From Alphaproteobacteria bacterium (lineage in GTDB: Bacteria; Pseudomonadota; Alphaproteobacteria; UBA8366; Aestuariispiraceae), in contig JANSXE010000006.1 in NCBI GenBank assembly GCA_024743195.1, positions 62,001 through 126,000 on the forward strand: DNA of 64,000 bases, given 5' to 3'. The notes under the pieces were generated by a model that saw only the letters and a program-made list of their open reading frames with translations, was not told the DNA's origin and searched no databases. The position numbers and the translations under genes are program-made. Positions 20,352-24,426 of the stretch are shown here, one piece after another (the stretch's first letter is position 1; every line of letters begins with the position of its first letter).

Positions 20352-21416
20352 ATGACGCGCTTCGTCCCCGCCCGATCGCCGCTTCGCGCCGCCGCCCCGG
20401 TCTGGGTCCTGATCGGCGCGCTGGCGTTGGCGGCGCCCGCCGCCGCGCAATCGGCCGGGCCGTTGGCCGAGGCCGAACGCCCTCGGGCGGAGAAAGGCGG
20501 CACGGCCGTCTTCGAGTTCGAGAACGATTTCTTCTCCAATACCGACCGGCACTTCACCCACGGCACGAAGCTGACCTATGTGACCGCGGAACGCGCGCCG
20601 GAGGACGACGACCTGATCTCCCAGGCCGCCGCCTACATCCCCTTCTTCCCGGATCAGGCGCGGGCGCGGGCGACCTATGCGCTGGGCCAGAACATGTACA
20701 CGCCCGAGGACATCAAGCTCGAACCGTTGATCCGGGACGACAGGCCCTACGCCGGCTGGCTCTATGTCGGCTTCGGGCTGGTCGCCGAGGACCCGGACCG
20801 CAAGCGGATCGACAATCTGGAGATCGACCTCGGCGTCGTCGGACCCTGGTCGCAGGCGGACCGCACCCAGCAGCATTGGCACCGCTGGTTCGGCTTCGAC
20901 GACCCCAAGGGGTGGGACAACCAGCTCGACAACGAGCCGGGCGTGATGATCCTGTTCGAACGCCAGCAGCGCTTCGCCAAGATGGAGACGCCGTTCGGCG
21001 TGGAAGCCGAGCTGCTGCCGAGCTTCGGCTTCGCCCTGGGCAATGTGATGACCTACGGCTCCCTGGGGGCGACGGTGCGGATCGGCGGCGATCTGGACGT
21101 CGACTACGGGCCGCCGCGCATCCGCCCCAGCCTGCCGACGGGCGGCTTCCTGCGCCGCAGCGAAGGCTTCAATTGGTACCTGTTCGCCGCCGTGGGGGGA
21201 CGCGCCGTGGCGCACAACATCTTCCTGGACGGGAACACCTTCTCGGACAGCCACAGCATCGACAAGAAGCTGCTGGTCGGCGACCTGCAGGCCGGCGCGG
21301 CGCTGCAATATGACGGATGGCGGCTCGCCTACACGCACATCCTGAGGACGCGCGAGTTCGACGGCCAGGACACGCCAGACCGCTTCGGGTCGCTCAGCCT
21401 ATCCTATCAGTTCTGA
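20352..21416 (+). CDS. LpxR-like lipid A deacylase family outer-membrane protein
   Basis: A 354-residue protein with an N-terminal signal (hydrophobic core ending APAAAQS) and a mature part that is a predicted 12-strand beta-barrel ending in SLSYQF, the C-terminal Phe signature for BAM insertion. The first strand contains FEFENDFFSNTDRHFTHG, matching the Asn-Asp catalytic region of LpxR, and QQHWHRWFG supplies the His region. LpxR removes the 3'-acyloxyacyl group of lipid A in a Ca2+-dependent way; whether this homologue does so is not shown. Known in databases as DUF2219. Divergent from the BisC-like gene with a 140-base spacer. Confidence 0.86.
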   Translation: MTRFVPARSPLRAAAPVWVLIGALALAAPAAAQSAGPLAEAERPRAEKGGTAVFEFENDFFSNTDRHFTHGTKLTYVTAERAPEDDDLISQAAAYIPFFPDQARARATYALGQNMYTPEDIKLEPLIRDDRPYAGWLYVGFGLVAEDPDRKRIDNLEIDLGVVGPWSQADRTQQHWHRWFGFDDPKGWDNQLDNEPGVMILFERQQRFAKMETPFGVEAELLPSFGFALGNVMTYGSLGATVRIGGDLDVDYGPPRIRPSLPTGGFLRRSEGFNWYLFAAVGGRAVAHNIFLDGNTFSDSHSIDKKLLVGDLQAGAALQYDGWRLAYTHILRTREFDGQDTPDRFGSLSLSYQF

Positions 21417-21441: not shown

Positions 21442-21648
21442 TCACCCGCCTGAGCCGGGGCGCGTCAGCCGGCGGAAGGCCGATTCCTCGTCCGGGCTTT
21501 CGAACGGGGCGGCGGCGAAGACGCCGTCGCGCCAAGCGGACCAGAAGTCGTCCGACTCGGACGCCTGCGACCGCGCGGCGGCGGTCGAGAAAGCCGCGTC
21601 CCCGTCCTCGGTTTCCCGCGGGTCGAACGTCTCGAATCCATGGTCCAT
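21442..21648 (-). CDS. Small acidic protein under a CtrA-type box
   Basis: A 68-residue unrecognised protein rich in Asp, Glu and Ser (MDHGFETFDPRETEDGD near the start, FWSAWRDG in the middle). No TM or signal. Two in-frame starts exist: ATG 21648, preceded by a GAGG six bases away, and ATG 21678. The shorter form fits better with transcription starting just downstream of the CtrA box at 21703-21717. The composition differs from neighbouring shadow frames and supports a real gene, but no family is recognised. Possible cell-cycle or motility accessory protein, on promoter evidence only. Confidence 0.55.
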   Translation of the reverse strand: MDHGFETFDPRETEDGDAAFSTAAARSQASESDDFWSAWRDGVFAAAPFESPDEESAFRRLTRPGSGG

Positions 21649-21702
21649 CGCCGCCTCGCCTTCGTCATGGCCCCCCACCTGTCGGAGCGTACGCGCGAGG
21701 CC

Positions 21703-21717
21703 TTAATCAAGGGTTAA
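21703..21717 (-). promoter_or_regulatory. CtrA-type binding site (TTAA-N7-TTAA)
   Basis: TTAATCAAGGGTTAA is an exact match to the full alphaproteobacterial CtrA consensus TTAA-N7-TTAA. It lies 25 bases before the longer and 55 before the shorter start of the small acidic gene on the minus strand, and no plus-strand gene follows. A -35-like TTGATT overlaps it. Confidence 0.65.
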
Positions 21718-21860
21718 AGCCTTGCATTTTAAAGAAAAATGGCGCCCTGATACCGCAGGGGCCGCAGGGTGGCGAAACCGCACCGGAAAGCCGCGGCGAG
21801 CCGCCGTGGGCGTGAGCGGTCGGGGGCTAGGCGAGGCGCACGCCTCAACGGCGAGCCGCG

Positions 21861-22514
21861 TCAGTCCTCTGTCGGCCGGTCGGCTGCGTCCAGAAGCCCG
21901 GTGACTTCGTCGTCCGACAACTGGTGGAAGTCACGGTAGAACTGGCCGATCGCCATGAAGCGCTCCGGCGTCTCCAGACAGACCACCGCATCGACCTCCC
22001 GCGCGAGCGCCGCGATCGCATCCGGCGGCGCCACCGGCGTCGCGATGACGAGCGAGGTCGGTCCGCGGCGCTTCAGCGCGCGCACCACGGCGCGCACCGT
22101 CGTTCCGGTGGCGATCCCGTCATCCACCAGAATCAGGTCGCGCCCTTCCAGCGGGATCGGCGCGCGGTGCGGGCGATAGAGCGCGCGGCGCCGCGCGATC
22201 TCCGCCGTCTCCTGGGCGATCGTCGGCTCCAGGTCGGCCCGGCGCAGCCCGGTGAGATGCATCACCTCCTCGTTCAGCACCACCTCAGGCGTCGCGCCGT
22301 CGACGATGGCGGCGGCCGCGAGCTCGGGCTGCGCCGGAACCCCGATCTTGCGCACGAAGACGACGTCGAGCGGCGCCTTGAGCGCGCGGGCGACCTCCAG
22401 CGCCACCGGCAGCCCGCCGCGCGGCAGGGCGAGCACGACCGGATCGGCCGGCGGCGCCTCGGCCAGCCGCGCGCCCAAGGCGCGGCCCGCCTCGCGTCGG
22501 TCGGCGAAACGCAT
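21861..22514 (-). CDS. Phosphoribosyltransferase family protein (COG1926)
   Basis: A 217-residue type I PRTase-fold protein. LPRGGLPVALEVA near 30, the PRPP-binding loop DLILVDDGIATGTTVRA near 127-143 and the VVFVRKIG segment near 52 are diagnostic of the COG1926 group. Exact base or substrate is unknown. This group is repeatedly found in stress and low-oxygen clusters with universal stress proteins and FtsH-like proteases. It lies 37 bases downstream of a small 91-residue protein gene on the same strand, suggesting one transcript starting in the divergent region at 22828-22962. Confidence 0.85.
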   Translation of the reverse strand: MRFADRREAGRALGARLAEAPPADPVVLALPRGGLPVALEVARALKAPLDVVFVRKIGVPAQPELAAAAIVDGATPEVVLNEEVMHLTGLRRADLEPTIAQETAEIARRRALYRPHRAPIPLEGRDLILVDDGIATGTTVRAVVRALKRRGPTSLVIATPVAPPDAIAALAREVDAVVCLETPERFMAIGQFYRDFHQLSDDEVTGLLDAADRPTED

Positions 22515-22551: not shown

Positions 22552-22827
22552 TCACCCATCCTCCGGCGCCGATGCGCCGCGATAGACGTCGTCGCGCTGC
22601 AACGTCCCGACAATGCGCCCGGGCGTCCCGGTCAGCGGATGGCCCGCACGGTCGGGCTCCTCGCCCGATCCCTCCAGATAGGCGAGCGCGACCTCCACAT
22701 CCTCCATCGTGGGATTGAGCGCCATGATCTCGGCCAGCGTATGGTCCGAGACCGGGCCGAGGGCGCGCCGCACGGCGCCCGACTCTGCGGCGCCGCGCCG
22801 CGGCGTCTCCTCCTGGCTTTCGGACAT
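22552..22827 (-). CDS. Small hypothetical protein, 91 aa, upstream of the phosphoribosyltransferase
   Basis: A 91-residue protein with no recognised domain. The central part (DHTLAEIMALNPTMEDVEVALAYLEG, residues about 29-54) looks like a compact helical motif and the tail (GRIVGTLQRDDVYRGA) is polar. ATG 22827 has a strong ribosome site AGGGAGA; a much longer open frame that runs up to 24402 is antisense to other genes and is rejected. Operon with the phosphoribosyltransferase and divergent from the hibernation-factor gene, so probably part of the same stress regulon. Confidence 0.7.
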   Translation of the reverse strand: MSESQEETPRRGAAESGAVRRALGPVSDHTLAEIMALNPTMEDVEVALAYLEGSGEEPDRAGHPLTGTPGRIVGTLQRDDVYRGASAPEDG

Positions 22828-22962: not shown

Positions 22963-23529
22963 ATGCAGGCGCCGCTTCAGATCCATTTCGAGCATCTGGA
23001 CCCCTCCGAGACCGTCGAAGCCAGGATCCGCGAGGAAGCGGAGAAGCTGGAGCAGTTCGAACCGCGGCTGACCACCGCGCGGGTTGTCGTGGCCCGACCG
23101 CAGCGCCGGCGCCATCACGGCGACGCGTTCCAGATTCGCCTGCATCTCACCGTTCCCGGCGCCGCGGATATCGTGGTCAGCCGCGAGCCGGGCGACAACG
23201 ACGCCCATACCGACATGTATGTGGTGATCCGGGACGCCTTCTCGGCCGCGCGCCGCCAGCTGCAGGACCTGGCGCGCAAGCGTCAGGGACACGTGAAGAC
23301 GCACGAGGAGCCGCCGCACGGCGTCGTGCGCGCGCTCAATCCTGAGGCGGATCACGGTTTCATCGCCGCCGCCGACGGGCGCGAGATCTATTTCCATCGC
23401 AACAGCGTGGCCAATGACGGCTTCGACGCGCTGTCGCTGGGCGACCCTGTGCGCTTTTCGGAAGCGGTCGGCGACAAGGGCCCGCAGGCCAGCTTCGTGC
23501 AGCCCGACGGCAAGCCGCATCCGGCCTAG
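22963..23529 (+). CDS. HPF/RaiA ribosome-associated protein fused to a cold-shock domain
   Basis: 188 residues with two domains. Residues 1-110 are an HPF/RaiA-type fold (IHFEHLDPSETVEARI, then a basic strand RPQRRRHHGD), which binds the decoding centre of idle 30S subunits. Residues about 118-180 form a cold-shock OB domain (HGVVRALNPEADHGFI, REIYFHRNSV). It differs from long HPF, whose C-terminal half is a dimerisation domain. It likely couples ribosome hibernation with single-stranded RNA binding during stress. ATG 22963 follows GAGAGGAC. The next gene starts six bases after its stop. Confidence 0.88.
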   Translation: MQAPLQIHFEHLDPSETVEARIREEAEKLEQFEPRLTTARVVVARPQRRRHHGDAFQIRLHLTVPGAADIVVSREPGDNDAHTDMYVVIRDAFSAARRQLQDLARKRQGHVKTHEEPPHGVVRALNPEADHGFIAAADGREIYFHRNSVANDGFDALSLGDPVRFSEAVGDKGPQASFVQPDGKPHPA

Positions 23530-23535
23530 GCCGAG

Positions 23536-24426
23536 ATGGCGCGGCACGCAGTCGACCCACACGACGCGACCGACGGGCCGGACAATCCGGCGATCGCCGC
23601 CAAGCTGCGCGACATGGCGGACCTGCTGGACGCGCAGGACGGCGACCGATTCCGTGTGGCGGCCTATCGGCGCGCCGCGGCGACGATCGACGCCTTGCCC
23701 GTCTCCGCCGCGGAGATCGCGCGGCGCGAGGGGCTGCCCGGCCTGACCAACCTCCCCGGGGTCGGAACCGGCATCGGGTCCGCCATCGCGGAGATGGCGA
23801 CGACGGGCGGCTGGGGGGCGCTCGACCGGCTGACCGGCGACAGCGCGCCCGAGACGCTGTTTCGCAGCCTGCCGGGCGTCGGCCCCAAGCTCGCCGCACG
23901 GCTCCACGAGAGGCTCGGCGTCGATACGTTGGAGGGGTTGGAGAGCGCGGCGCATGACGGGCGCCTGGAAACGGTCCCTGGCGTCGGGCCGCGCCGGGCG
24001 GAGGCGATCCGCCTGGCCCTCGCCGACCGGCTCGGCCGCAAGCGCCTGCGGTCGGCGCAGCCGGTCGAGCCGCCGCCGATCGGTCTGATCCTGGAGATCG
24101 ATCGGCTTTATCGTCTGGGCGCATCGCGCGACGCTTTGCCGCGGATCGCCCCGAGGCGCTTCAATCCGGACGGCGCGGCCTGGCTTCCCGTCCTGCACGA
24201 GGAGATCCCGCCCTGGAGCGTCACCGCGCTCTTCTCGAACACCAGGACCGCGCATGATCTGGGCAAGACGCGCGATTGGGTGGTACTGTATTTCCACAAG
24301 GACCACGGCCCCGAAGGTCAGTGCACCGTGGTGACGGAGCGCCGGGGCCCGCTGGCCGGCCGGCGCGTGGTGCGCGGGCGCGAGGGTGCGACGGCCGCCC
24401 ACTACGCCGCGACAGAGGGCCAGTGA
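23536..24426 (+). CDS. HhH protein resembling the N-terminal half of PolX
   Basis: A 296-residue protein. Residues about 20-100 match the 8-kDa HHH_8 domain of DNA polymerase beta/PolX (NPAIAAKLRDMADLL, AYRRAAATIDALP, LTNLPGVGTGIGSAIAEM). Two further helix-hairpin-helix motifs follow (FRSLPGVGPKLAARL near 115 and LETVPGVGPRRAEAI near 145). The polymerase palm and PHP exonuclease of PolX are absent; instead a roughly 100-residue C-terminal domain (VTALFSNTRTAHDLGKT, VVLYFHKDHGPEGQ) is present. It probably binds gapped or damaged DNA, perhaps protecting or nicking it; catalytic activity is not evident. It is in operon with the upstream hibernation factor. Confidence 0.8.
   Translation: MARHAVDPHDATDGPDNPAIAAKLRDMADLLDAQDGDRFRVAAYRRAAATIDALPVSAAEIARREGLPGLTNLPGVGTGIGSAIAEMATTGGWGALDRLTGDSAPETLFRSLPGVGPKLAARLHERLGVDTLEGLESAAHDGRLETVPGVGPRRAEAIRLALADRLGRKRLRSAQPVEPPPIGLILEIDRLYRLGASRDALPRIAPRRFNPDGAAWLPVLHEEIPPWSVTALFSNTRTAHDLGKTRDWVVLYFHKDHGPEGQCTVVTERRGPLAGRRVVRGREGATAAHYAATEGQ

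Follow-up and report, generated by a model that had tools for sequence, protein, structure and literature searches.

The locus was studied in a 64,000-nt window, which is the whole stretch of DNA analysed here. Along the minus strand, a phosphoribosyltransferase-family gene is followed by a terminator-like hairpin with its T-tract, a CtrA-type box, a small acidic ORF and the convergent LpxR-family gene (Table 1). The box is intergenic, and of the genes that could lie directly downstream in either direction, only the acidic ORF is plausible. A plus-strand target was rejected, since no coding-like ORF lies before the phosphoribosyltransferase gene, which reads the opposite way. On the minus strand, the box is separated by 24 nt from GTG 21678 and by 54 nt from ATG 21648, in agreement with the 25-55 bases given in an earlier note on this DNA.

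Table 1. Features at the locus of the small acidic ORF (positions in the window)
Feature	Position	Strand	Remarks
LpxR-family outer-membrane protein gene, convergent neighbour	20352..21416	+	PF09982
Small acidic orphan ORF	21442..21648	-	68 aa from ATG 21648; 78 aa from GTG 21678; codon score 0.40-0.44 per codon
Possible Shine-Dalgarno sequence GAGG	21654..21657	-	5 nt before ATG 21648; read from sequence
Possible -10 element TACGCT	21686..21691	-	11 nt after the box; weak
Full CtrA-type box TTAA-N7-TTAA	21703..21717	-	minus strand reads TTAACCCTTGATTAA; no C after the second TTAA
Terminator-like hairpin with T-tract at the end of the phosphoribosyltransferase gene, just upstream of the box	21731..21765	-	stem 21760-21745, tail CGCCATTTTT
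Phosphoribosyltransferase-family gene, upstream neighbour	21861..22514	-	PF00156

The acidic ORF is probably a real, separately transcribed orphan gene, since its codon score is the highest among 120 ORFs of similar size and it lies behind the terminator-like hairpin, whose fold is not better than that of shuffles (z -0.34). Scored against the codon usage of nine neighbouring genes, the acidic frame reached 0.40-0.44 bits per codon, the highest of the six frames; this value is low but falls within the spread of true genes, whose 5th percentile is 0.34 and median 0.61. Few sequences matched the in-frame score of 0.40, namely 0-2% of open off-frame stretches taken from known genes and 0 of 5958 open shuffles. 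Among the 120 window ORFs of 60-110 aa it ranked first, and the other two ORFs with scores of at least 0.38 lie within an assigned 890-aa gene. An alternative ATG at 21668, in another and Arg-rich frame, has a better Shine-Dalgarno sequence than ATG 21648; this frame was rejected as non-coding with a codon score of -0.81. The product of 21442-21678 has a pI of about 4.2 and no match in Pfam, NCBIfam or PHROGs, so that its earlier description as an unrecognised acidic protein of 68-78 residues holds. A single-sequence AlphaFold model (mean pLDDT 67, pTM 0.36), with helices at residues 22-46 and 52-61, suggests two helices and a flexible N-terminus, and says little more.

The box (TTAATCAAGGGTTAA at 21703-21717) is the sole exact TTAA-N7-TTAA in the window, and none was found in 100 dinucleotide-preserving shuffles of the window. 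The earlier note had called such a match rare in GC-rich DNA. The shuffle test understates chance, since the box sits in an AT-rich pocket and the genome rate is about 1.9 places per other TTAA-TTAA spacing. The pocket of 40 bp around the box holds 3 of the 12 TTAA words of the window. The possible -10 element follows the box at the same offset, 11, as TAGTGT follows a chemoreceptor-type box (L002). Over 99 family boxes, TANNNT at offsets 9-14 was not clearly commoner than at control offsets, and a fixed -10 element was dropped as an extra box test for this reason.

To obtain a chance rate that respects the TTAA content of the genome itself, we counted TTAA pairs separately for each spacer length between 2 and 20. 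TTAA-N7-TTAA occurs at 8 places genome-wide, compared with 34 over the 18 other spacers of N2-N20 (1.9 each), for which a Poisson tail calculated by hand is about 0.001. When a C after the second TTAA was included, on either strand, spacer 7 had 7 places, and the remaining spacers between 3 and 15, twelve in all, shared 9. The family pool consisted of four genomes, namely the host (G000), its sister (G001), G009 and G011, with spacers 5, 6, 8 and 9 as neighbouring spacers; in this pool there were 30 spacer-7 boxes with C compared with 5.0 per neighbouring spacer. TTAA-N7-TTAA is a genuine, spacer-specific signal in the host genome and its family.

The seven C-bearing boxes of the host genome precede or flank a CheZ gene, two confirmed chemoreceptors, a third HAMP-type receptor (judged by eye, the gene being cut by the end of the retrieved sequence), an Hpt-receiver protein, a methyltransferase and one unknown. 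Since spacer 7 is over-represented and the other boxes adjoin mostly chemotaxis and signalling genes, CtrA boxes are real in this lineage. The motif is thus a working signal in the host genome, and its targets are mostly chemotaxis and signalling genes, as described for CtrA in other Alphaproteobacteria. The strong TTAA-N7-TTAAC boxes L005 (G000:C15:341619) and L007 (G000:C20:392267), near a methyltransferase-like gene and a 427-aa protein without a Pfam match, are better candidates for unrecognised CtrA targets than the window ORF.

Of the genome's eight boxes, the one in the window is the weakest, and it alone has no flanking C after the second TTAA; the word "perfect" in the earlier note is accurate for the TTAA-N7-TTAA core and not for this C. 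A different explanation, which we regard as distinctly possible though not probable, is that the orphan gene is real and the box is a chance TTAA pair in an AT-rich pocket made by the upstream terminator T-tract and an ordinary promoter, with no role for CtrA. In the host genome alone, C-less boxes number 1 at N7 and about 1 at neighbouring spacers, as expected by chance. In addition, three TTAA words are clustered in the 30 bp of 21703-21732, next to the T-tract, where they also form TTAA-N11-TTAA, and a chance pair is likelier at such a place. Against this, the four family genomes contain 18 C-less spacer-7 boxes compared with 4.0 per neighbouring spacer, so that about three quarters of them are above background, and the window box is in promoter position with a gene downstream. 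Given the family enrichment of C-less N7 boxes, the C is not strictly required, and our first idea that its absence excludes the window box was not upheld. A C-less spacer-7 box in this family is real more often than not; for the one in the window, only its position speaks in its favour.

Conservation in related genomes, proposed earlier as a check, was found neither for the ORF nor for the box. Searches for relatives of the ORF found none in 59 near genomes, the single sister species among them, in a class-wide draw of 385 genomes, in 84,980 species genomes screened for close relatives, or in plasmids or viral contigs. The weak hits of the near-genome and class searches were noise, and the best one inspected (L131) runs antisense to another gene and out of its frame. 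We also rejected a link of the ORF with the phosphoribosyltransferase gene, as no ORF relative was found near 80 homologous phosphoribosyltransferase genes. Upstream of the phosphoribosyltransferase gene, 22552-22824 encodes a 90-aa protein that has no match in Pfam, NCBIfam or PHROGs and was not found beside 80 other phosphoribosyltransferase genes.

The LpxR gene and a molybdopterin oxidoreductase gene are syntenic in the sister species (77-80% identity). Beyond the LpxR stop codon synteny is lost until near window 33.2 kb, and the ORF sits at the break. The segment 21417-33200 is not common to the sister, which has 24.6 kb of other DNA between the same syntenic blocks. It contains the phosphoribosyltransferase, an S30AE/cold-shock fusion, a helix-hairpin-helix protein, a DUF3775 protein and an FtsH protease, and looks like a stress-tolerance island. 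The fusion (22963-23529) joins an S30AE ribosome-hibernation domain (Ribosomal_S30AE, PF02482) and a cold-shock domain (PF00313) in one protein of 188 aa, and the helix-hairpin-helix protein (23536-24426) resembles the N-terminus of PolX.

After LpxR, the sister has a different box with C, TTAATTTCGCATTAAC (TTAA-N7-TTAAC, L030:2560-2575, G001:C11), before a different gene, which encodes a 204-aa protein (L030:2658-3272) that by eye resembles a PAS-type regulator. The box-LpxR distances are about 46 and 287 nt in the two species and the flanks are unlike, so the two boxes were not taken as the same site. No counterpart of the window box at the same place with the same target was found in the sister, which lacks the ORF. 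The absence of relatives in all the genome, plasmid and viral sets searched, together with the stop of synteny at the end of LpxR, would also fit an ORF that is not a gene, in which case a rearrangement would have left the region as spacer between the convergent genes for LpxR and the phosphoribosyltransferase; the gene-like codon composition and phase of the ORF speak against this, and we consider it improbable.

Also improbable is that the box belongs to a dyad, GGCTTTAA-N7-TTAAGGCC on the minus strand, which would act as an RNA hairpin or be bound by a different dimeric regulator. In favour of this, the minus-strand transcript folds with a stem of 9 pairs and a loop of 7 nt (-8.9 kcal/mol, z -1.94), and 11 of 200 shuffles did as well. 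Against it, half of the stem is automatic, since any TTAA-N7-TTAA can pair with itself, the other boxes of the genome do not show the extra GGC/GCC arms, and no second T-tract follows the dyad.

The host genome encodes a CtrA ortholog that is 66% identical over its length to the Caulobacter CtrA sequence used as query. Against the Caulobacter query, its DNA-binding domain is near-identical, with LTGKEY, LTKEMFLNHLYGGMDEPE and a nearly unchanged recognition segment. The full CtrA site is TTAA(N7)TTAA, located near -35 for activation (PMC6180460), and motility and signal transduction are enriched functions of the CtrA regulon in Alphaproteobacteria (PMC6180460, PMC2877005).

The reading of box and ORF as a CtrA-controlled small-protein gene is plausible, and we hold it tentatively. 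The short, lineage-specific gene for the acidic 68-aa protein would form its own transcription unit behind the phosphoribosyltransferase terminator. Phosphorylated CtrA is predicted to bind the TTAA-N7-TTAA box from a -35-like position and to activate, rather than repress, both this gene and the chemotaxis and signalling genes at the other boxes; transcription would start near 21680 and the ORF would be translated. The earlier proposal of a new small protein controlled by CtrA thus keeps the CtrA ortholog, the spacer-7 signal, the box position and the coding-like ORF on its side, and has a box without C and an ORF without relatives against it. Its further suggestion of a link to the cell cycle or motility gained no support from the gene itself, as nothing ties the protein to either except the presumed regulator. 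That the product is a small adaptor or regulator is a default guess. A recently born or acquired orphan gene, wired into a chemotaxis-type CtrA regulon and encoding a new small acidic regulator or adaptor of that pathway, seems unlikely.

If CtrA control is true, an unannotated small-protein gene joins the CtrA regulon of this alphaproteobacterium, where chemotaxis and signalling seem to be under CtrA control. This would be a small example of regulon growth through a species-specific gene, with the known role of CtrA unchanged; at most, a known regulon would gain a further lineage-specific member, and no new kind of system would be involved. The spacer-resolved count is the more useful by-product, with seven TTAA-N7-TTAAC boxes that adjoin mainly chemotaxis and signalling genes.

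SciP is a small CtrA-related regulator. The window ORF is like SciP-type small regulators in encoding a small protein in a CtrA context, but its product is acidic, matches no Pfam or NCBIfam family and has no detectable relative, and there is no reason to call it SciP-like. Compared with the CtrA full-site promoters of Caulobacter crescentus and other Alphaproteobacteria, the window site is predicted from sequence, lacks the C of the host's other boxes and has an orphan as its target. It is alike in its intergenic TTAA-N7-TTAA core upstream of a gene, in a host genome that has ctrA and whose other boxes stand before chemotaxis and signalling genes.
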